A DNA stretch of 39,319 nucleotides. It comes from a virus. A program made the translations under genes and the position numbers. Positions 1-39,319 of the stretch are shown piece after piece (position 1 is the first letter of the stretch; the number at the start of each line of letters is the position of its first letter). The stretch is from positions 1 through 39,319 of the IMG/VR virus record IMGVR_UViG_3300045965_000132; one strand, written 5' to 3'. Below the pieces are notes generated by a model, which was given only the letters and a program-made list of their open reading frames with translations, was not told the origin of the DNA and did not search any database.

Positions 1-127
1 GGGCCAGCTCGAGGCGCAGCTGCTCGTGCTTGGTTCGTACGGAGTTGAACGTCGGCCCCACCGGAGCCTTGACAGGGGCTGGCCCACCCCTACGCCTGGC
101 CCCGATCGAGGTGCCCTGCCGCTTCGC
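1..127. repeat. Left copy of 127-bp terminal overlap
   Basis: These bases are identical to 39193-39319. Together with a gene that reads through the join, this shows that the ends overlap and the molecule is circular, or circularised in the assembly, with a unit length of 39192 bp. A length of exactly 127 matches a commonly used maximum assembly k-mer, so it is probably an assembly overlap and not a biological terminal repeat. Confidence 0.95.
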
Positions 128-491: not shown

Positions 492-1190
492 TTATCCATG
501 ACGAGCGAACGCCTCATTGATCCGTGCCTGGACGTTGCGAGCGAAGTTGGACTCGAGCACGCGCTCGGCGGTGCGGTAGAACTGGAGTGTCGGGGGGATG
601 CGCACGGTGGGCTTGAAGGCATAGAGCACGGTGGCGATACCGGTGCCCAGGCGCTGCAGGATGCCAACGTTGGGGATCTGGAACGTCCCCAGCAGGCCCT
701 TACGAACGATCGTCCCGGCCTTGGCGGGGCGCGCGTTCTTGCGCGGTCGGCCGCGGGTGGTGCGGCGCAGCTGTAGGCGCTGGATGAACAGCGAGTCGGG
801 CACCAGGGCGGCCTTGCCGGGGCGAGCGCCGCCGACTACGGGGACCGCTACCCCGCCGCCTTTGACGCCGCCCCGGATCCCACCGTGCTCGAACCGGGGC
901 AGGAGCAGCGGTGAGCCGCTGAGTTGGCGCCCGATGCCAACCCCAACTCGGGCCTCCCACTTACCCACTCCGGTGCTGGCGTTGAAGCTGGCCCCGAAGT
1001 ACTTGACCTGGCGCTCGAGGAACCCGGGTTTACGCACGGTGAATACACGCCGCACCTGCTGCTGCTCCGCCTGCTGCACCTGCTTGGCGGTGTCGTTGAT
1101 CGCATGCACGGTGGTGAACAGCATGCGCTTGTAGCCCTTGTCCAGGCGCAGCAGGACTTCGGTTGCGCGCGTGTCCACGGTGAAGATCAT
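492..1190 (-). CDS. gpZ-like tail completion / minor tail protein
   Basis: This 232-residue basic protein has features of the lambda gpZ family: an N-terminal helix with AINDTAKQVQQ, a middle segment rich in Gly, Arg and Val (residues about 75-130), and a basic PRKNARPAKAG motif. gpZ-type proteins sit at the tail end facing the head and make the tail competent for joining. ATG at 1190 is chosen because it overlaps the TGA of the upstream small gene (ATGA), the usual coupling here; GTG at 1202 is possible. Its position beside terminase, away from the other tail genes, is odd. The family assignment rests on pattern resemblance only. Confidence 0.5.
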   Translation of the reverse strand: MIFTVDTRATEVLLRLDKGYKRMLFTTVHAINDTAKQVQQAEQQQVRRVFTVRKPGFLERQVKYFGASFNASTGVGKWEARVGVGIGRQLSGSPLLLPRFEHGGIRGGVKGGGVAVPVVGGARPGKAALVPDSLFIQRLQLRRTTRGRPRKNARPAKAGTIVRKGLLGTFQIPNVGILQRLGTGIATVLYAFKPTVRIPPTLQFYRTAERVLESNFARNVQARINEAFARHG

Positions 1191-1312
1191 GGCCTGCCCC
1201 ACTGGGCGAAAATGTATCCAGCCACGAGGCCAACACCGAGAGCAGCGGCAACGAGCGCAGCGAGGATCACGTCCAGGTCGGGAGGCTGGGGTCGCGGCTT
1301 CACGGGGGCCAC
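1187..1312 (-). CDS. 41-residue single-pass membrane protein
   Basis: The frame opens at GTG 1312, directly after the TAG of the upstream regulator, and closes on a TGA that overlaps the ATG of the next gene. The product has a proline-rich start (PVKPRPQPPD) and then one hydrophobic helix of about 22 residues (residues 14-35) ending in Tyr-Ile-Phe-Ala-Gln-Trp. Precise stop-start coupling on both sides supports a real gene. The role is unknown: a small holin-like or superinfection-exclusion protein is conceivable, but nothing in the sequence decides this. Confidence 0.55.
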   Translation of the reverse strand: MAPVKPRPQPPDLDVILAALVAAALGVGLVAGYIFAQWGRP

Positions 1313-1567
1313 CTAGGCGACGCCAGCCCGCCCATTACCTTTGACCGCGGCACGCTGGGCGTAGATGTCTCCCAACGTGATCCAGCCCCCCGCCAGGGTG
1401 ACCATGCGGAGCGCCAGGGCTGGTCTCGGGACGCGGCTACCGGCAAGCCACTGATATACGGGCCACCTGGTGCTGAGGCCTAAGTTGTTGGCCAACCTCG
1501 CCGCACCGTAGCCGTGGACCCACGCCCCGAATGTGGTCTTGCGCCTTACTCGACTGCTTGGCGCCAT
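1313..1567 (-). CDS. Small HTH regulator (YdaS/Cro-like)
   Basis: This 84-residue basic protein has a helix-turn-helix across residues 12-45 (GAARLANNLGLSTRWPVYQW) followed by VPRPALALRMVTLAGG, a pattern typical of YdaS/Cro-type phage regulators. The ATG at 1567 is preceded by a G-rich Shine-Dalgarno region. The promoter at 1606-1634 lies about 35 bp upstream, and its -35 box is one arm of a symmetric site. This suggests that the protein represses its own transcription and that of the coupled genes down to terminase. It could be a Cro, a repressor or a late switch; no effector domain is present. Confidence 0.7.
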   Translation of the reverse strand: MAPSSRVRRKTTFGAWVHGYGAARLANNLGLSTRWPVYQWLAGSRVPRPALALRMVTLAGGWITLGDIYAQRAAVKGNGRAGVA

Positions 1568-1646: not shown

Positions 1647-1898
1647 CTAGACCCCCGTCGCCCAGGCGTCGGGGTCCACGCCCGCCTTGCCGGTGGCGAT
1701 GTCCCGGGCGATCCCGGCGAGCGTTGCCGGCCAGTGGGCTGGGTCCAGATCCGGGGCCGCGGCCCTCAACAGGCCCTCGACGGCCGCAATCCGATCTGCC
1801 CCCTCCGGATACTGCTTCGCCGCCTCCACGAGCGCTGCCGCCGCGTCCTCGTCCACCGCGCCCAACGCCTCGAGCAACCGTTGCAGGAAGTCCATCAT
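1647..1898 (-). CDS. Small acidic hypothetical protein
   Basis: This 83-residue product is Ala- and Asp-rich and probably all-helical, with two amphipathic stretches (DFLQRLLEALGAVDEDAAAA and the AAVEGLLRAA segment). ATG 1898 has AGGGGGG about five bases upstream; a second ATG follows immediately. It starts six bases after the stop of the holin/barrel gene and ends just before the operator at 1613-1634, so it is the last gene of the leftward late unit. I do not recognise the family. There is no membrane segment or known motif. Confidence 0.6.
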   Translation of the reverse strand: MMDFLQRLLEALGAVDEDAAAALVEAAKQYPEGADRIAAVEGLLRAAAPDLDPAHWPATLAGIARDIATGKAGVDPDAWATGV

Positions 1899-1904
1899 GC
1901 CCCC

Positions 1905-2783
1905 CTATGGCCAGAGCCGGCGGGCCAGGCCCACGCGGCCGAAGTCGATGTCCACCTTGCCGTCCACCTCGGCGAACCCGTGCGAGTACATGCCGTAGAG
2001 CGCCCAGGCGGGGGCGACCTTGCGCGAGACGACGAGGTGCGCCTCGTAGCCCCGCCAGTCGTGGACGCTGTCCTCCCCCAGCCACATGCCCCCGACTCCG
2101 ATGGCTACGGCATTGGGCGAGCTCGGGGCGCTGGGCCCCGGGTACACCTTCAGGTTCAGTGCCGCCCGAATGGCATTGCGGTGCCCATCGCTGTTGAGCG
2201 GGAATCCGTGATTGTAGAGCCCGTAAGCGGACAGCCGCTGGTGCAGGCTGTAGGTCACTGCCCCACCCAGGTCCACACCACGCCAGTTGGGCGTCTCGGT
2301 GCCGACGTCCGAGAAGATCATGCCCCCGGCCTGCACGGTCGCCTGCACACGCTTGCCAACCGCGAGTATCGGCACGCCGTCTTGCGCCGAGGCCACTCCC
2401 GCCCCCAGCGCCAACAGTGCGACGACCAGCACCACGAGCAGCGCCGGCCTCGGTGCCGCCGTCGTGGTCGGATTGGCCGGGAACACCGGCGAGGTGCTGC
2501 GCGCCACCGGTTCCACCACCAGCATGTACGTCACCTGCACCCACGCGAAGGCGATGGCCGCCTGGCCGGCGATCACCAGCGGTGGCAGCTGTGCCTCGAC
2601 CCCGCCCCACACGGCGAGACCGACGCCCAGGACCGCGGTCAGCACGGCAGTCACCACCAGCGTCTGGCGACCGGCGATGCGCGCGAGCAGCGGCTTGACC
2701 CACTGCATCACCATCGGCAGCAGGGTCAGCTTGGCCGCCACTAGCGGCTGAAACAGCACGTAGAACGGCGATTGCGGATCCAT
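1905..2783 (-). CDS. Holin-like membrane domain fused to signal peptide and beta-barrel domain
   Basis: ATG 2783 has a strong Shine-Dalgarno (AAGGGGGG), giving 292 residues. Residues 12-90 contain three hydrophobic segments (about 12-32, 41-62, 68-90), a holin-like topology. A Pro/Thr linker (91-113) leads to a second hydrophobic stretch at 114-133 ending in Ala-Ser-Ala/Gln, which reads like a signal peptide with cleavage site. The rest (134-292) has alternating polar/aromatic strands (YGLYNHGF, GVGGMW, YGMYSHGF) and resembles a small outer-membrane beta-barrel. Two GTG codons at residues 117-118 could start a separate secreted product. It lies in the lysis region after the M15 peptidase. The function is inferred. 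Confidence 0.7.
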   Translation of the reverse strand: MDPQSPFYVLFQPLVAAKLTLLPMVMQWVKPLLARIAGRQTLVVTAVLTAVLGVGLAVWGGVEAQLPPLVIAGQAAIAFAWVQVTYMLVVEPVARSTSPVFPANPTTTAAPRPALLVVLVVALLALGAGVASAQDGVPILAVGKRVQATVQAGGMIFSDVGTETPNWRGVDLGGAVTYSLHQRLSAYGLYNHGFPLNSDGHRNAIRAALNLKVYPGPSAPSSPNAVAIGVGGMWLGEDSVHDWRGYEAHLVVSRKVAPAWALYGMYSHGFAEVDGKVDIDFGRVGLARRLWP

Positions 2784-2869
2784 TGTGCACCCCCCTTGTC
2801 TAAGCCGCGTGTTCCCCTTTCGGCGGATGCGCGGTCCCCGCCTACCAGCCAACTGCCCCCAGCGAGCTG

Positions 2870-2926
2870 CTAACGGTGAGCCCATGCCGCGACCACCATC
2901 AGCACCACCGTGAGTAGCGCCACCAC
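2870..2926 (-). CDS. Possible 18-residue membrane peptide
   Basis: Between the coiled-coil gene ending at 2938 and the barrel gene starting at 2783 lies a 154-bp gap. It contains a tiny frame, GTG 2926 to TAG 2870, encoding a single hydrophobic stretch (VALLTVVLMVVAAWAHR). It could be translated by reinitiation after the upstream TAG. The length is marginal and the Shine-Dalgarno is weak (GGGGTGTC), so it may be chance. It is worth noting only because small membrane peptides are common in lysis cassettes. Confidence 0.2.
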   Translation of the reverse strand: MVALLTVVLMVVAAWAHR

Positions 2927-2937
2927 GACACCCCAAT

Positions 2938-3165
2938 CTACCTGCCGTCGTCCTCCTCGTAGTCTTGTTCGCCGCTCCCGTGAATCGAGCGCAACTGGCG
3001 GATCTGCTCCCGCACCTGAGCCCGCCATTCGCGGAACGAATCGATCTGCACGCGCTGCGCTGCGCTTTCGCGCTCGAGCACTCCGACCTTCCACCAAGTG
3101 ATCACCGCGTGGGCGGCGATCCCGCCCAGGGGTATCCACAGCCTTGGATCGTCTAGCCACGACAC
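2938..3165 (-). CDS. Small membrane protein with N-terminal TM and coiled coil
   Basis: This 75-residue protein starts at GTG 3165 (GGAAAGG upstream). Residues 8-27 form a hydrophobic segment (LWIPLGGIAAHAVITWW), followed by a charged helix with heptad character (ERESAAQRVQIDSFREWRAQ), and it ends in a run of acidic residues. The topology resembles phage lysis accessory proteins such as inner-membrane spanins or XhlA-like proteins, and it directly follows the endolysin gene. No partner lipoprotein was seen, so a spanin assignment stays tentative. Confidence 0.65.
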   Translation of the reverse strand: MSWLDDPRLWIPLGGIAAHAVITWWKVGVLERESAAQRVQIDSFREWRAQVREQIRQLRSIHGSGEQDYEEDDGR

Positions 3166-3189: not shown

Positions 3190-3621
3190 TCAGGCGAAGC
3201 GTGGGCCGACGCTCGCCCGCATCGCAGCGAGGGTCTGCCCGCCATGGTGCTCGAAGTGCGGCCGATCGGGACGCTTCCACCTGCCACCCCACTCGAGGCC
3301 CAAGGATTCGCCCAGGTCCCCGATCCGGTTCCAGATTGAGTCGTCGTCGCGCGGGCCCGGCGTCCCCAGGTCGTAAGGGGTCCGGTCCTTCTCGGCGACA
3401 TCGAAGGCACGCCCAAAGTTGTGCCAGGAGTACCCGGGCGGTGCGTTGGTGACCGCCGGTCCAGGAGCAGTCCTGCCTCTGGCATACAACTGCGCCTGTT
3501 CCTCCCAAGTCCGTCGGGTGTGCGTCACCATCAAGTTGATGCCCTCGCGGGCGCATGCTGCCAGGAGTTGAACGCACAGCTCCCTCACATCCGGCTCTAG
3601 GTCATCAAGATTGCGGCTCAT
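3190..3621 (-). CDS. Endolysin: M15 family L-Ala-D-Glu/D-Ala-D-Ala-type peptidase
   Basis: This 143-residue single-domain protein carries the zinc-peptidase signature SWHNFGRAFD (His67 and Asp74 as ligands, SxHxxGxAxD) and PHFEH (His122 as third ligand), preceded by GLEWGG around Glu110. M15 enzymes of this size from phages cleave cross-linking peptides of peptidoglycan at the end of infection. There is no signal peptide, so release probably needs a holin, for which the membrane proteins downstream are candidates. ATG 3621 overlaps the TGA of the preceding gene (ATGA). Family assignment is firm; the exact bond cut is not visible. Confidence 0.93.
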   Translation of the reverse strand: MSRNLDDLEPDVRELCVQLLAACAREGINLMVTHTRRTWEEQAQLYARGRTAPGPAVTNAPPGYSWHNFGRAFDVAEKDRTPYDLGTPGPRDDDSIWNRIGDLGESLGLEWGGRWKRPDRPHFEHHGGQTLAAMRASVGPRFA

Positions 3622-24969: not shown

Positions 24970-25851
24970 TCACCGATACATTGTCTTGATCCTCCCCCAG
25001 GTCGTGGCGCCGACCGGAACCGCCTGCGCCCGCCCCGCGTCGTAGTGGCGGACGGCATCGTGCTCGCCCAACGCGCGCTTGTAGAACGCAACGTGAGCGA
25101 GCGAGCCGTGGAACGGCGGATTGCCGCAGTAGCTCTCCGTCCCGTTGATGCACCAGTAGAGCGGCACGCTGGCACCGCCGAGACGTAGCGGACTGCCGCT
25201 CGTCGCCGGATAGCCGTCGGGCACCGGCATGGACGCATCGAGCGCGCCGTTGACGTAGACGGTCATGGTCCCGCTGGCGACGGTGGCCAGCACGTGCGTC
25301 CATTCCCCGACTGCGGGCTTGGCGTTCGTGTAAAGGACGTGCCCGTCGTACACGCCGCTCTTGGCCACGTTCGACTGGAACCCGCCGTGGTAGTACCGGG
25401 TGCTCAGGTTGTAGCCGCCGCCCGCGTACGGATGGCTCCAGTTGAGCGGACCGTAGGCGGCCATCTTCTGCACGAGGACCTGCTCGCGCAGGTGGAGCCC
25501 GATGTCGCTCTTGAACCACGCCTCGATGGTGTAGGGCGGCACGAGATCGATGGCGTCGCAGTGCTCGGCTTCCCAGTATCCGGCCTGCGCGAAGTTCCAC
25601 TCCATCGGCCCGTTGTAGTGCCACGAGGTGCCGCCCGCCGGTATCCCGGGAGAGCCGAGCCCGCCGAAGGCAACCCACACGTTGTACGTCGGCGTATGAC
25701 TCGCGACTTCGTGCACCGACATGGAGTTGGGCGGGTCGTTCAGCGGCCAGTAGGCGCTCGGGCGGTCGGCGAGCACGGTGTTGATGTAGAGGTCTTGTGC
25801 GAGCGCGGGAACGGCGCACAACAAGGCGATTACTACGACGATGCGTTTCAT
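24970..25851 (-). CDS. Secreted LamG/concanavalin-like protein
   Basis: 293 residues starting at ATG 25851 behind GGAGGG. The first 19 residues are a clear signal peptide (KRIVVVIALLCAVPALAQ). The mature part opens with DRPSAYWPLND, the standard beginning of LamG/jelly-roll lectin domains. It contains YTIEAWFKSD, GEWTHVLATVASGTMTVYVN and FHGSLAHVAFYKRAL, the successive landmark strands of that fold. It should be exported and bind glycan or another surface ligand. Export makes a virion role less likely unless it is anchored. It follows an operon with a membrane-bound glycosidase-like protein. Confidence 0.85.
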   Translation of the reverse strand: MKRIVVVIALLCAVPALAQDLYINTVLADRPSAYWPLNDPPNSMSVHEVASHTPTYNVWVAFGGLGSPGIPAGGTSWHYNGPMEWNFAQAGYWEAEHCDAIDLVPPYTIEAWFKSDIGLHLREQVLVQKMAAYGPLNWSHPYAGGGYNLSTRYYHGGFQSNVAKSGVYDGHVLYTNAKPAVGEWTHVLATVASGTMTVYVNGALDASMPVPDGYPATSGSPLRLGGASVPLYWCINGTESYCGNPPFHGSLAHVAFYKRALGEHDAVRHYDAGRAQAVPVGATTWGRIKTMYR

Positions 25852-26207
25852 TGACCCTCCTTGGTCTCCCCCGCCGCGCGCCGGATGGCCATGGCAGCCT
25901 CGTCGCGGTTGTGCGGGTCCATGACCGCGGACTCGACAATCCGCGCCGCCTGTTCCATGCCAGCCAATCGCGCCGTGCGCTCTCGGTCGCACAACCAGGC
26001 GGCGATGCGCGACACATCCCGGCGCGATCTCCAACCGATCGCATCGAGCAGCGCGCCCACCGCCTGGACCGCCGCGTCCCGCTCCGCCAGCATCGCGCCG
26101 ATACGCGCCAACTCCGCCCGCGCGTCCGGCGGTTGGGCGGGGTGCGCGTCCGTGTGCAGGCCCGGGCTGTCCACTACCCTCCCCCGCCCGCATTCCGTTT
26201 CGTTCAT
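25848..26207 (-). CDS. Helical hypothetical protein
   Basis: 119 residues, Ala/Arg/Glu-rich and almost wholly helical (RAELARIGAMLAERDAAVQA; AAWLCDRERTARLAGMEQAA). The start at ATG 26207 follows GGGGGCGGC and overlaps the TGA of the HTH gene (ATGA); the end overlaps the start of the LamG gene. The C-terminal ARIVESAVMDPHNRDEAAMA stretch resembles short helical motifs in small phage accessory proteins. No function assigned. Confidence 0.65.
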   Translation of the reverse strand: MNETECGRGRVVDSPGLHTDAHPAQPPDARAELARIGAMLAERDAAVQAVGALLDAIGWRSRRDVSRIAAWLCDRERTARLAGMEQAARIVESAVMDPHNRDEAAMAIRRAAGETKEGQ

Positions 26208-26470
26208 GCCGCCCCCACGACCCGGCCGCGCACAGAGCCGCACCGCTGCCCGTATTCGAGCGTGCCGCCCTGGCGGATCGTCGTCCGCCACCGCCACAGG
26301 GTGCTGGGCGTCACACCCAGCTCGTCCGCCGCCCACACGAGACTGCCGCCGCAGTAGTCCATCACCATGGCGACGTGGCGTTGCACGGCTGACGCCAGGC
26401 GCAGGTCGGCAAGTCCGTTGGCGTGGTGCCATGGCGGGGATGGGATGCTGACTTCTTCAGGCCACCTCAC
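26204..26470 (-). CDS. Small Fis-type HTH protein
   Basis: 88 residues from GTG 26470, whose GTGA overlaps the stop of the glycosidase-like gene. The second half contains CGGSLVWAADELGVTPSTLW followed by RWR, the Fis/NtrC-type DNA-binding helix-turn-helix (G-G-x-x-x-x-A-A-x-x-L-G-x-x-x-x-T-L-W-R). No sensing domain is present. It probably modulates accessory or late promoters by binding DNA. The longer upstream frame is a shadow of the glycosidase gene. Confidence 0.7.
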   Translation of the reverse strand: MRWPEEVSIPSPPWHHANGLADLRLASAVQRHVAMVMDYCGGSLVWAADELGVTPSTLWRWRTTIRQGGTLEYGQRCGSVRGRVVGAA

Positions 26471-27837
26471 TGCGGCCCCCGGCGTCGCACGAGGAAAACG
26501 GCGTCCTGGCCTGGCACCGTCAGGCTCGATGCGGTGGCACCGTTGTTGACCGACGGCGTCACGGTCCCGAAGATCCGCCACAATCCGCCGCCCGTGTAGA
26601 GCGTGACCGGGACGCGCCGCATGTTGACGAACACCGCGCCGTTCTCGAAGTCGCGCCGGAATAGGACCGGCGTCGGTACGCCTTGAACAGTGTCCCTCGC
26701 CAGCACCTGCGCCGTATCGCGCGGCGCGCCCAACCACCCCTTGAACCGCACGTCCTTGACCGCGACACCCTTCGGCGTGACCGCGTACTCATCCCACCAC
26801 CACGGCAAGTAGCCGCGCGCGTTGTCCTGAATCGAGCCGGTCAGCGACCCGGCGCCACTGCCCAGCGTCGCCACCGCCATCACCAGCCGCTGATGCTTGA
26901 CGTTGTAGGGATCCTGCTGGTTCGCGCTCGAGCGCCAGGTGGTCAGCAGGTTGCGCGTGGGCTGGTTGTAGTAATGCTCGCTGGCCAGGTAGTGCTGGAC
27001 GCTTTCACCCGGCTGGTAGGGCCAGTTCTCGTTCATCCACGCGTTGGCCGTGGAGTCGCCGCGCGGGCCACAGTTGCCGCACACCGGCAGGCCGGGCGCC
27101 TGTTCGCGCAGGCGGGCGAAGTAGGCGGTCACCCCCGCCTTGTAGGCGCGATCCCAATCGGCGAGCGACGCGTAGCCGCTGCGCACGTAGTCGATCTTGT
27201 CACCGAGGTTCTGCGTCCAGGTAATGCCCTGGCATATCTCGTCGGCGAACAGGTCGGTGAAGATGGACGGGTCAGCCCAGCGCACGAACGTATCGGCGAG
27301 CGCCACGGCGATGCCCGGCTTGGCGAGATCCACGTAGCCGCACCCGTAGCCGCGGTAGTTCCCGCCCGTCACGCTGCTGTAGAGCACCGCATTGTGCTGG
27401 CGAATGGCGCGCCACCTAGCCCACAGGTAGTTCGTGCCGCTCGTGTCGCAGCCATAAGGCACTTCCCCGCCGTCGTAGCACTCGACGCACGCGTGGAAGG
27501 TCCCGGCGGGCGAGAACGCATAGAGCCGCATGCCGGGGTTGAGCGAGCGTAGATAGCGAAGCGTCTTGTTCCCAGGTGTCCCGGGCGCCGCCACGTCGAG
27601 CAGGACCCAGTCCCACATCGCCTGTTCGCGCACCAGGGCGCTGTCCATGACGCCGCCAGACCAGAACGGGGCGCCGTTACTGAACTGCCAGGAGTACATG
27701 GCGACGCGCGGATACACGTCTCGTGCGACGGCGGTCGGTGGCGGCTTCGGTTTCGGTTTGTGCAGGATGATCGCGATCCCGATCGTAGCTGCGAACATCG
27801 CACCGAAGATGGCGCCCAGCTTCAACAGGTCCCTCAC
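26467..27837 (-). CDS. Membrane-anchored glycosidase-like protein
   Basis: 456 residues from GTG 27837 (AAGGGGGG upstream; GTGA overlap with csrA). An N-terminal anchor, KLGAIFGAMFAATIGIAIIL, is followed by a Lys/Pro spacer. The body suggests a TIM-barrel glycoside hydrolase of the putative GHL15 type: YSWQFSNGAPFW start, NPGMRLYAFSPAGTFH, TDLFADEICQG with acidic residues in a strand-end position, and SEHYYNQP. A C-terminal beta domain (FENGAVFVNMRRVPVTLYTG) ends the protein. Glycosidase activity is inferred; the catalytic pair cannot be fixed. It may remodel host polysaccharide or block superinfection. Confidence 0.65.
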   Translation of the reverse strand: MRDLLKLGAIFGAMFAATIGIAIILHKPKPKPPPTAVARDVYPRVAMYSWQFSNGAPFWSGGVMDSALVREQAMWDWVLLDVAAPGTPGNKTLRYLRSLNPGMRLYAFSPAGTFHACVECYDGGEVPYGCDTSGTNYLWARWRAIRQHNAVLYSSVTGGNYRGYGCGYVDLAKPGIAVALADTFVRWADPSIFTDLFADEICQGITWTQNLGDKIDYVRSGYASLADWDRAYKAGVTAYFARLREQAPGLPVCGNCGPRGDSTANAWMNENWPYQPGESVQHYLASEHYYNQPTRNLLTTWRSSANQQDPYNVKHQRLVMAVATLGSGAGSLTGSIQDNARGYLPWWWDEYAVTPKGVAVKDVRFKGWLGAPRDTAQVLARDTVQGVPTPVLFRRDFENGAVFVNMRRVPVTLYTGGGLWRIFGTVTPSVNNGATASSLTVPGQDAVFLVRRRGPQ

Positions 27838-31831: not shown

Positions 31832-32712
31832 GAGGCCACCTCCTCGCCCTCGGGCATCGACTCGAACGCCCGATCGGTGACGGTGGCCATGACGGGGCCC
31901 GGGAACATGCCGGGCCAGCGGTCGTCCCGCTCGCAGGCCTCGAGCGTCATCATGAGCTGCTCGTTCCGGACACTCCCGCAGACCAGGGCGGCCTGCTCGA
32001 GCTCGAAGACGCCGACGTCGTGGGGCGGCGTCGACTCGACGGCGATGAAATAGAACAGGGGAACCTCGCGCCCGAGCCGGGAGAGGCCGTCCATGTACCA
32101 GGCGGCCTTCCGGTGGTAGCCGTAGCGCGTCATCTCGTAGGGGCTGAAGTCGCGCAGCGAGCGCGTCGTCTTGACGTCTGCGACCCAGCCCTCACCCAGT
32201 AGGTCGGCGCGGCCGCGGCAGAGGCGCGGCTTGCCGGTCTTCCCGTGAGGCCAGCCCCACCAGAGCATCGTCAGCTCACGCTCGCGCGCCCGCGGCAGCA
32301 GCCGGCCCACCCGGGGGTGCGCCGTGATCGAGAGTGCCATGGCCCGGACCTTCTCCATGACGTCGGTCCGGAGCACCGTGAAGCCCCCCTGCTCGATGTC
32401 CGCGACCGCGTCCTTGTAGGCCCGGGTCGCGCGCGGCTTAGAGTTGCCGGCGGCGACGTCGAGCGGCTCCAAGACGAAGCGCTTCTCGAACAGCTCGGGC
32501 TCGAGCACCGCGGCGTGCAGCGCCGTGCCGAGTGCGAGTGACGGTGATTCCTCCGCCGGCTGGCCGAGCCGCCAGCGGTAGTGAAGCGGACTCACCTCGA
32601 GCCACTCGAGTCGGCCCGAGTTCATGGCGTCGAACTTCAGGTACTCGGCCATCGGGACGTCTCGGTAGAAGCCGCCCTCGACGGGATCGGCCAGCACGCG
32701 CTCAGTCGTCAT
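31828..32712 (-). CDS. RecE/exonuclease VIII-like PD-(D/E)XK exonuclease
   Basis: 294 residues. The N-terminal SPLHYRWR and LGTALHAAVLEPELFEKRF segments, followed by CRGRADLL (Asp170), VADVKTT (Asp179, Lys181) and YGYHRKAAWYMDGL, are the ordered motifs of the RecE C-terminal exonuclease family. The enzyme chews the 5' strand of double-stranded DNA to expose 3' ends for annealing. ATG 32712 overlaps the repeat-protein gene by 11 bp. No RecT was recognised; the 241-residue protein two genes downstream is a possible partner. Confidence 0.9.
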   Translation of the reverse strand: MTTERVLADPVEGGFYRDVPMAEYLKFDAMNSGRLEWLEVSPLHYRWRLGQPAEESPSLALGTALHAAVLEPELFEKRFVLEPLDVAAGNSKPRATRAYKDAVADIEQGGFTVLRTDVMEKVRAMALSITAHPRVGRLLPRARERELTMLWWGWPHGKTGKPRLCRGRADLLGEGWVADVKTTRSLRDFSPYEMTRYGYHRKAAWYMDGLSRLGREVPLFYFIAVESTPPHDVGVFELEQAALVCGSVRNEQLMMTLEACERDDRWPGMFPGPVMATVTDRAFESMPEGEEVAS

Positions 32713-33760
32713 GGCTCACCCTCCGCTCCACGAGCTCGCCATTAACGACCTCGTACCACGTGTCCGCCTTGATGCCATCCTCGCCGACGTAGCCCACGGC
32801 AACGCGCGGCCGACCTTCGACCTGGTCGCCATCCCACCACGCGATTACGACGCAGCCCTTCTCGCCTGCGCGAGCTCGGCTCTTCAAGCCAAGGCAGGCG
32901 GCGATCGAGCACTTGCCGGCGGTGGACGCCGGCGCGCGGTCCCCGGCGGTGGACGCCGGCGCGAGGTACCCGGCGGTGGACGCCGGCGCGCGGTGCCCGG
33001 CGGTGGACGCCGGCGCGCGGTACCCGGCGGTGGACGCCGGCGCGAGGTTCCCGGCGGTGGACGCCGGCGCGCGGTCCCCGGCGGTGGACGCCGGCGCGCG
33101 GTCCCCGGCGGTGGACGCCGGCGCGAGGTACCCGGCGGTGGACGCCGGCGCGCGGTCCCCGGCGGTGGACGCCGGCGCGCGGTCCCCGGCGGTGGACGCC
33201 GGCGCGAGGTCCCCGGCGGTGGACGCCGGCGCGCGGTGCCCGGCGGTGGACGCCGGCGCGCGGTACCCGGCGGTGGACGCCGGCGCGAGGTCCCCGGCGG
33301 TGGACGCCGGCGCGCGGTGCCCGGCGGTGGACGCCGGCGCGCGGTACCCGGCGGTGGACGCCGGCGCGAGGTCCCCGGCGGTGGACGCCGCACCCTCCCA
33401 TGCCTTGCTGTTCATCCGAATATAGGCGGTAGCTCCCACCAGCCCGCGCGCCTGGCCCTGCTGCACGAAGACCAGTTCACCCGTCCGAAACTTAACCTTC
33501 GAACCGTCGGGGAACCGCACGAGGTTTTCCGACGAATCCTCAACTTTGTAGATCTGCCACCATGCGAGAGGATCGTCGAGGCGCATCAGCCCGTAATCGC
33601 CGAGCCCGTACTCCAGCCCGTGAATGCCGCCGCCGCACTGCGCTCTGCCATCCCAGTCTGGAGCCGTCACAACAGCGCCGACCTCGATCGGATGCTTGAA
33701 ACCGTTGTAACTACCGCCATCCGCCTCGCATGTGCGCAACACGAGCACCGTCTTCGTCAC
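32702..33760 (-). CDS. Repeat protein with 18 nonapeptide units and conserved C-terminal domain
   Basis: 352 residues in three parts. Residues 1-120 form a globular head (GGGIHGLEYGLGDYGLMRLD; ENLVRFPDGSKVKFRTGELV). Then 17 full and one partial nonapeptide repeats follow, consensus ASTAG-[DYHN]-[LR]-AP. The C-terminus has CSIAACLGLKSRARAGEKGC, VVIAWWDG and IKADTWYEVVNGELV, a recurrent ending of proteins with ASATG/ASTAG-type repeat stems. Such repeats probably build a beta-solenoid. It lies between HNH and RecE-like genes and has no export signal, so an intracellular role is expected. Function unknown. Confidence 0.8.
   Translation of the reverse strand: MTKTVLVLRTCEADGGSYNGFKHPIEVGAVVTAPDWDGRAQCGGGIHGLEYGLGDYGLMRLDDPLAWWQIYKVEDSSENLVRFPDGSKVKFRTGELVFVQQGQARGLVGATAYIRMNSKAWEGAASTAGDLAPASTAGYRAPASTAGHRAPASTAGDLAPASTAGYRAPASTAGHRAPASTAGDLAPASTAGDRAPASTAGDRAPASTAGYLAPASTAGDRAPASTAGDRAPASTAGNLAPASTAGYRAPASTAGHRAPASTAGYLAPASTAGDRAPASTAGKCSIAACLGLKSRARAGEKGCVVIAWWDGDQVEGRPRVAVGYVGEDGIKADTWYEVVNGELVERRVSHDD
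32916..33390 (-). repeat. 27-bp tandem array with one four-way variable base per unit
   Basis: Seventeen full and one partial unit of 27 bp, contiguous and nearly identical in DNA. On the minus strand each unit reads GCG TCC ACC GCC GGG NAC CKC GCG CC-. N is G (8 units), T (5), C (3) or A (1), giving Asp, Tyr, His or Asn. K is T in every third unit exactly and G in the others (Leu/Arg/Arg), so a perfect 81-bp higher-order period overlies the 27-bp one. The absence of silent drift implies recent expansion or homogenisation. Confidence 0.95.
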
Positions 33761-38958: not shown

Positions 38959-39319
38959 CCGTGGCGCCCTCCTCCCCGTCGGCCGAATCCATGGCCCCCC
39001 GCAAGGCGGCCCGTAAGCACTCCGCCATCAGTCGCCGACACTCCCCCACGTCGCCGGTCGCCGCCATCTGGGCCGCCAGCTGCGCCGGCACCCGCAACAC
39101 GGCCTCTTTCACCCGCTGCGCGGACTCGAATGCCTGCCGCGCCACCTCGTCCGCCCGCACCAGGATCCCTCGGCGCTCGTCGGCGTCCATCTGGGCCAGC
39201 TCGAGGCGCAGCTGCTCGTGCTTGGTTCGTACGGAGTTGAACGTCGGCCCCACCGGAGCCTTGACAGGGGCTGGCCCACCCCTACGCCTGGCCCCGATCG
39301 AGGTGCCCTGCCGCTTCGC
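38942..39319 (-). CDS. Terminase small subunit, C-terminal part (begins at 331)
   Basis: Continuation of the small terminase begun at base 331. This part is almost entirely helical and charged: from about residue 90 it has heptad-like Leu/Arg/Glu stretches (TKHEQLRLELAQMDADERRG), then a basic-hydrophobic helix, and it ends in an acidic Asp/Glu/Gly tail. Such a region would oligomerise the subunit and contact the large terminase. It overlaps the next gene (start 38958) by 17 bp, so the two are translationally coupled, and the large subunit follows within 400 bp, as in lambda Nu1-A. Confidence 0.85.
   Translation of the reverse strand, partial: AKRQGTSIGARRRGGPAPVKAPVGPTFNSVRTKHEQLRLELAQMDADERRGILVRADEVARQAFESAQRVKEAVLRVPAQLAAQMAATGDVGECRRLMAECLRAALRGAMDSADGEEGATDGDGG
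39193..39319. repeat. Right copy of 127-bp terminal overlap
   Basis: Exact duplicate of bases 1-127. It lies inside the terminase small-subunit gene, whose reading frame continues through it into the left end of the window. Collapsing one copy gives the true circular map. Confidence 0.95.

Follow-up and report, generated by a model that had tools for sequence, protein, structure and literature searches.

Class I holins of the lambda S105 type are small proteins of three helices that are encoded beside the endolysin and carry the charges of an N-out/C-in topology, as described for this class (PMC9636201). Spanins, such as T1 gp11 and Rz/Rz1, occupy a place in the same cassette, combine a hydrophobic helix with an exported part that can be rich in β-structure, and serve the outer-membrane step of lysis. 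Kongari et al. (2018) reported that about 13% of genomes are without a spanin, and considered it possible that an outer-membrane protein (OMP) acts as o-spanin (PMC6139136); how spanin-less phages breach the outer membrane is an open question (PMC6139136, PMC12819732). The disruptin of phage phiKT, a short amphipathic antimicrobial peptide, is one agent other than a spanin, and the nature of other outer-membrane disruptors has likewise been called an open question (PMC12819732). In the literature that we searched, no example of an OMP acting in lysis was found. Here we describe a phage gene in which a holin-like domain, an internal signal-like sequence and a predicted small β-barrel are joined in one reading frame.

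The gene lies in a virus record of 39,319 bp that was analysed over its whole length (the window). An exact 127-bp direct repeat is present at both ends (1..127 and 39193-39319), and the genome is therefore complete. Its genes are on the minus strand, and include a gpA-type terL, a lambda-family portal and an S78-protease/capsid fusion. In the order of transcription, the lysis region begins with an endolysin of the VanY/Peptidase_M15 family (143 aa, 3190..3621, minus strand, assigned by Pfam and homologues), followed by a 75-aa gene (2938..3165, minus strand), the fusion gene (1905..2783, minus strand), an 83-aa gene for a cytoplasmic-looking protein directly 3' of it (1647..1898, minus strand), an 84-aa helix-turn-helix-like gene (1313..1567, minus strand) and, last in this order, a minor-tail-like gene (492-1202, minus strand). 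The 75-aa product has an N-terminal hydrophobic helix and a charged, coil-like tail; its family matches are weak and non-specific, and it is possible that it is an i-spanin-like or XhlA-like partner. A tiny possible membrane peptide, VVALLTVVLMVVAAWAHR, can be read between this gene and the fusion (2870-2926, minus strand).

The fusion gene, complement(1905..2783), encodes 292 residues from an ATG at 2783-2781 to a TAG stop at 1907-1905, and a Shine-Dalgarno-like AAGGGGGG (2790..2797, minus strand) is found 6 nt before the start codon. Hydrophobic segments are located at about residues 8-29, 42-60 and 69-90, with a fourth at about 112-131. We divide the protein into an N-domain (residues 1-105; 2469..2783) with three hydrophobic helices, a linker with an internal signal-like helix that ends in ASA/Q (residues 106-133; 2385..2468), and a C-domain (residues 134-292; 1908..2384) predicted to form an 8-stranded β-barrel, all on the minus strand.

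With the window protein as sole query, Pfam, PHROGs, phages, plasmids and viral contigs gave no relative; the fusion matched nothing in Pfam, PHROGs, NCBIfam or PDB sequences, and scans of genome contigs revealed no relative in bacterial genomes. Relatives were reached step by step, from the endolysin to L002 and L003, then by way of a small β protein to L128, and with a holin alignment to L130 and L132. The closest relatives of the endolysin are in L002 and L003, and separate small genes for a secreted β-rich protein are present in the lysis regions of these two; L128, found in a scan with these small β proteins, has such a gene together with a separate homologue of the N-domain. With the two N-domains as query L130 was found, and with the window and L130 together L132. 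Both encode in-frame fusions of the same architecture, at L130:5001-5858 (285 aa) and L132:6001-6855 (284 aa); the two come from one metagenome (same IMG number). The terL identities to that of the window (L128 56%, L130 51%, L132 46%) indicate that these phages are related. A weak profile match in L076 (E = 8e-4) was dropped, as it lies in an antisense frame.

Identity to the window is 51% over residues 1-135 for L130, which extends through the linker and the signal, and 60% over residues 1-105 for L132, the C-domain of which is 45% identical over 155 aa. In each part of the gene (N-domain, linker with signal, C-domain), divergence is highest at codon position 3; together with the in-frame architecture shared by L132 and L130, this shows that the window gene is not a chance frame. 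The fusion gene is thus confirmed as one conserved reading frame, and what the sequence-only reading had described, namely three helices, a second hydrophobic stretch with Ala-Ser-Ala/Gln and a β-rich C-terminal part in a single frame, is seen again in the other fusions.

The placement of the gene in a lysis region also held up. It lies downstream of the M15 endolysin, and in the window, L130 and L132 alike the endolysin is followed by a coil gene that encodes a membrane helix, then by the fusion, a gene of 82-84 aa and the helix-turn-helix gene, with small lipoprotein genes inserted into this order in L130 and L132. The endolysin of the latter two is an Amidase_2 enzyme unrelated to the M15 enzyme of the window; no Amidase_2 is present in the window, and no M15 enzyme in L130 or L132. 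Lysis modules typically swap endolysins around a fixed gene, and the constant position of the fusion despite the exchange of the endolysin fits what would be typical of such a module. The 83-aa gene has a similar 82-aa counterpart after the L132 fusion, and in L130 this position is taken by a gene of 84 aa; the conservation with L132 includes YPEGA...GIA.DIATG..GVDPDAWA, and the gene might be a lysis regulator.

The N-domain also occurs alone, in the stand-alone homologue L128:4585-4944, which reaches a local alignment score of 145 (31.6 ± 5.7 for shuffled sequences), and its identity to the window is 60% in L132 and about 51-55% in L130. Three hydrophobic segments are present in the four homologues; with a strict hydropathy cut-off only segments starting near 36 and 106 pass. 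In the four homologues, positive charges are found in the loop between helices 1 and 2, while the loop between helices 2 and 3 is neutral or net negative; this pattern fits a predicted N-out/C-in orientation. The N-domain resembles class I holins in its small size, three putative helices, charges and position beside an endolysin; in contrast to these, the fusion has no holin-family sequence match and adds a C-terminal signal and barrel. As the N-domain matches no holin family in Pfam, PHROGs or NCBIfam, the term holin-like, already used in the sequence-only reading and retained here, refers to topology, size and place in the endolysin cassette. The holin-like genes of L002 and L003 were considered as kin of the N-domain and showed no similarity to it.

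For the C-domain, AlphaFold2 (AF2) was run on an input of two sequences, those of the window and L132. The model has eight antiparallel strands (145-158, 165-179, 184-193, 205-213, 226-237, 242-257, 260-272 and 276-288) with an average length of about 13 residues, at a mean pLDDT of 45.5 and a pTM of 0.38; the C-terminal half reaches a pLDDT of 47-63, and a single-sequence run on residues 118-292 gave a pLDDT of 30. Given this low confidence, the fold searches are indicative only. Foldseek matches in the PDB are overwhelmingly outer-membrane barrels, designed and natural, with TMB2.3, OmpA, OmpW, OmpX and Ail as the best (E 0.004 and above), and among the best matches in the viral structure library BFVD are many proteins of phages with an outer-membrane barrel annotation. 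With VIA-align, a designed transmembrane barrel (Z 11.0, 117 residues, 2.3 Å) and OpcA (Z 10.4) come out on top, and soluble barrels rank lower, at Z 8.1 and below. The sequence itself contains an internal repeat (residues 150-194, 2202..2336, and residues 228-270, 1974..2102, both on the minus strand), the self-comparison score of which is 60, against 26 ± 4.3 in 300 shuffles, none of which scored as high.

These features make a small 8-stranded outer-membrane-type barrel the most likely fold for the C-domain, as judged from the predicted model. Preceded by a signal sequence, it would share its up-and-down topology and its size of about 150 residues with OmpX, Ail, the OmpA transmembrane domain, NspA, OpcA and the phage barrels of BFVD. 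It differs from these in being synthesised in one chain with a holin-like domain, and it has no detectable sequence similarity to solved or family-listed OMPs (its profile matched no known OMP family in Pfam, NCBIfam or PDB sequences). The sequence-only reading had proposed such a barrel and named structure prediction as a check; eight strands, OMP fold matches and the internal repeat speak for the proposal, and a mean pLDDT of only 45.5 leaves the fold predicted at low confidence. In L130, the C-domain has seven strand-score peaks (as many in 0 of 300 shuffles) and, by pairwise and profile comparison, no detectable sequence relation to the C-domains of the window or L132; it may have diverged or been exchanged.

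We suggest that this is a late gene of the lysis cassette and that its product is a polyprotein. Residues 1-105 would form a holin-like domain of three helices in the inner membrane, oriented N-out/C-in, which would place the linker in the cytoplasm, so that the fourth helix can act as an internal signal sequence and export the remainder. Signal peptidase I would then cut at ASA/Q to release a free protein of 159 residues, and the outer-membrane assembly machinery of the host would insert it as a barrel of eight strands, in which a unit of four strands is present twice. The barrel, produced in a 1:1 ratio to the holin-like part, would exert its effect on the outer membrane at the end of the infection, most likely as an outer-membrane partner or destabiliser in lysis; here an OMP would take the place of an o-spanin or work alongside one. 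We give this reading, a processed polyprotein of a holin-like part and an outer-membrane barrel with a role in lysis, a probability of roughly 0.4. The data show one conserved frame, its position in the cassette, the exchange of endolysins around it, a conserved junction and the internal repeat. Export, cleavage and the location of the barrel in the outer membrane are steps that we infer, and its role in lysis, as well as a host that has an outer membrane, are the most speculative parts.

The fourth stretch ends in GVASA/Q in the window, VPAASA/Q in L132 and GLAFG/Q in L130, so that an AxA/G-Q motif is kept in all three fusions, in agreement with the internal signal-like stretch noticed initially; cleavage, after residue 133 of the window protein (V-A-S-A/Q-D), is putative. 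An internal cleaved signal has a bacterial precedent in the Bradyrhizobium cytochrome b/c1 precursor, on which no paper came up in the literature searched. Several other readings of the same gene have to be weighed against ours. The sequence-only reading had also considered that an internal GTG at residues 117-118 could give two separate products. Although GTG codons are indeed present at 117 and 118, a good ribosome site at the proper distance is lacking, L132 and L130 have no equivalent start codon with a ribosome site, and the products would be without a basic n-region, with no more than about 10 residues ahead of the cleavage site in that of L132; we consider this start highly improbable. 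A polypeptide that serves both membranes, proposed at the same time, would amount to a new unimolecular spanin in which the uncut chain bridges the inner and outer membrane. The single open frame without a stop is compatible with this, and a helix followed by a β-rich periplasmic domain recalls the T1 gp11 u-spanin (PMC6139136). However, strand 1 begins only about 15 residues after helix 4, which in our view favours cleavage over a chain that stays intact. About 15 residues are too short to span the periplasm. The conserved AxA/G-Q also speaks against the bridge, and the fusion differs from spanins in that it has no lipobox (the junctions ASA/Q, ASA/Q and AFG/Q contain no lipobox Cys) and no C-terminal transmembrane helix as in u-spanins, the C-terminus being a predicted strand; its barrel would instead be embedded in the membrane and is likely cut free. 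An uncut spanin is thus improbable. Somewhat less so, while still rather unlikely, is that the C-domain is exported as a soluble periplasmic β-barrel or sheet of the lipocalin or avidin kind, acting for example on the cell wall or the endolysin. The low AF2 confidence leaves room for this, Rv2717c, Rv0813 and avidins are among the VIA-align matches at Z 7-8, and the amphipathic-strand count of the window C-domain is not above that of shuffles (p = 0.22). This ad hoc score tells OMPs apart from soluble proteins of E. coli but not from membrane proteins of the helical type, and we do not rely on it as proof. On the other hand, the best-scoring fold matches are membrane barrels, the predicted strands average about 13 residues, and the polar strand faces are conserved at 28 of 52 positions and the hydrophobic faces at 18 of 50 (p = 0.08), the opposite of what is expected for a soluble core and a trend that would suit a membrane barrel.

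The main rival to a lysis role accepts the processed fusion and its barrel, and assigns the barrel to adsorption control (superinfection exclusion, or protection of progeny from binding to debris) or makes it a surface protein that benefits the infected cell; the barrel would merely share the expression unit of the holin and mask or alter a receptor late in infection. Phage-encoded outer-membrane barrels do occur in the viral structure library, and divergence is much more rapid in the C-domain than in the N-domain, as is the case for surface proteins. In addition, lipoprotein genes lie directly upstream of the fusion in L130 (60 aa) and L132 (49 aa); these could be ordinary o-spanins, in which case disruption of the outer membrane need not be the task of the barrel. 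Against this stands that in three phages the barrel is retained in the lysis cassette, covalently tied to the holin-like domain, a coupling that a moron would not need. Moreover, two scans of the window genome revealed no convincing lipoprotein gene, and consequently no o- or u-spanin is recognised there. Adsorption control is in our view unlikely, if well worth keeping in mind. The lack of a recognised lipoprotein in the window, taken together with the suggestion that an OMP could serve as o-spanin (PMC6139136), makes an outer-membrane lysis partner the most likely role for the barrel. That the polyprotein is a new outer-membrane lysis effector in the strict sense, yielding holin and barrel 1:1 with the barrel replacing a lipoprotein o-spanin, is a more demanding claim, which we put forward only tentatively. 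Such an effector would share with disruptin the idea of an outer-membrane agent that is not a spanin, although the C-domain is a domain of 159 residues with predicted strands and not a helical peptide.

The kinds of components are all known already: holin-like domains, signal peptides, small barrels and phage barrels. The expectation that a phage-encoded barrel would in itself be new does not stand, given the many phage outer-membrane barrels in BFVD; the fusion of a holin-like domain to a barrel in a lysis cassette, however, matched nothing in the libraries or literature searched. With regard to the spanin-less phages (about 13% of surveyed genomes, PMC6139136), this conserved fusion provides a definite gene for experiments. 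If our reading is true, it would also be a polyprotein of a kind unusual among prokaryotic viruses, with a signal sequence inside the chain. Should the barrel instead function in superinfection exclusion, the fact that it is covalently joined to a holin-like domain would still be new.

The small secreted proteins at L128:3884-4279, L002:7561-7968 and L003:7086-7439 form a rare family. They share the motifs GFRW ... RLP ... DRDFTD.P ... R.G, are encoded in lysis regions and have about four strongly amphipathic strands; they might form oligomeric barrels, and the family has no database relative. Like the fusion, they have a signal peptide and amphipathic strands and belong to the same type of cassette, and that of L128 is near the stand-alone N-domain homologue; yet they are separate genes with about half the strands of the fusion. 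We do not claim homology between them and the C-domain, as the profile comparison was not significant and only one of three pairwise tests gave p = 0.004.

Other features of these genomes were noted in passing. The window contains a 27-bp tandem repeat at 32916-33390 (17.6 copies, 94% matches), which codes for APASTAG-type repeats inside a 352-aa gene (32702-33760, minus strand). It also encodes a signal-peptide protein with a Laminin_G_3 (concanavalin-like) domain and, upstream of it, a membrane-anchored protein without a Pfam match that looks like a glycoside hydrolase (24970-25860 and 26467-27834, respectively, both minus strand). FN3-like secreted or lipoprotein genes recur at L130:4391-4804, where the gene sits beside the lysis genes, L002:8685-9134, L003:8887-9294 (minus strand) and L050:3367-3795. 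Finally, folE-, queE- and queD-like genes of the 7-deazaguanine pathway adjoin the lysis cassette of L130 (L130:6377-8217, minus strand).
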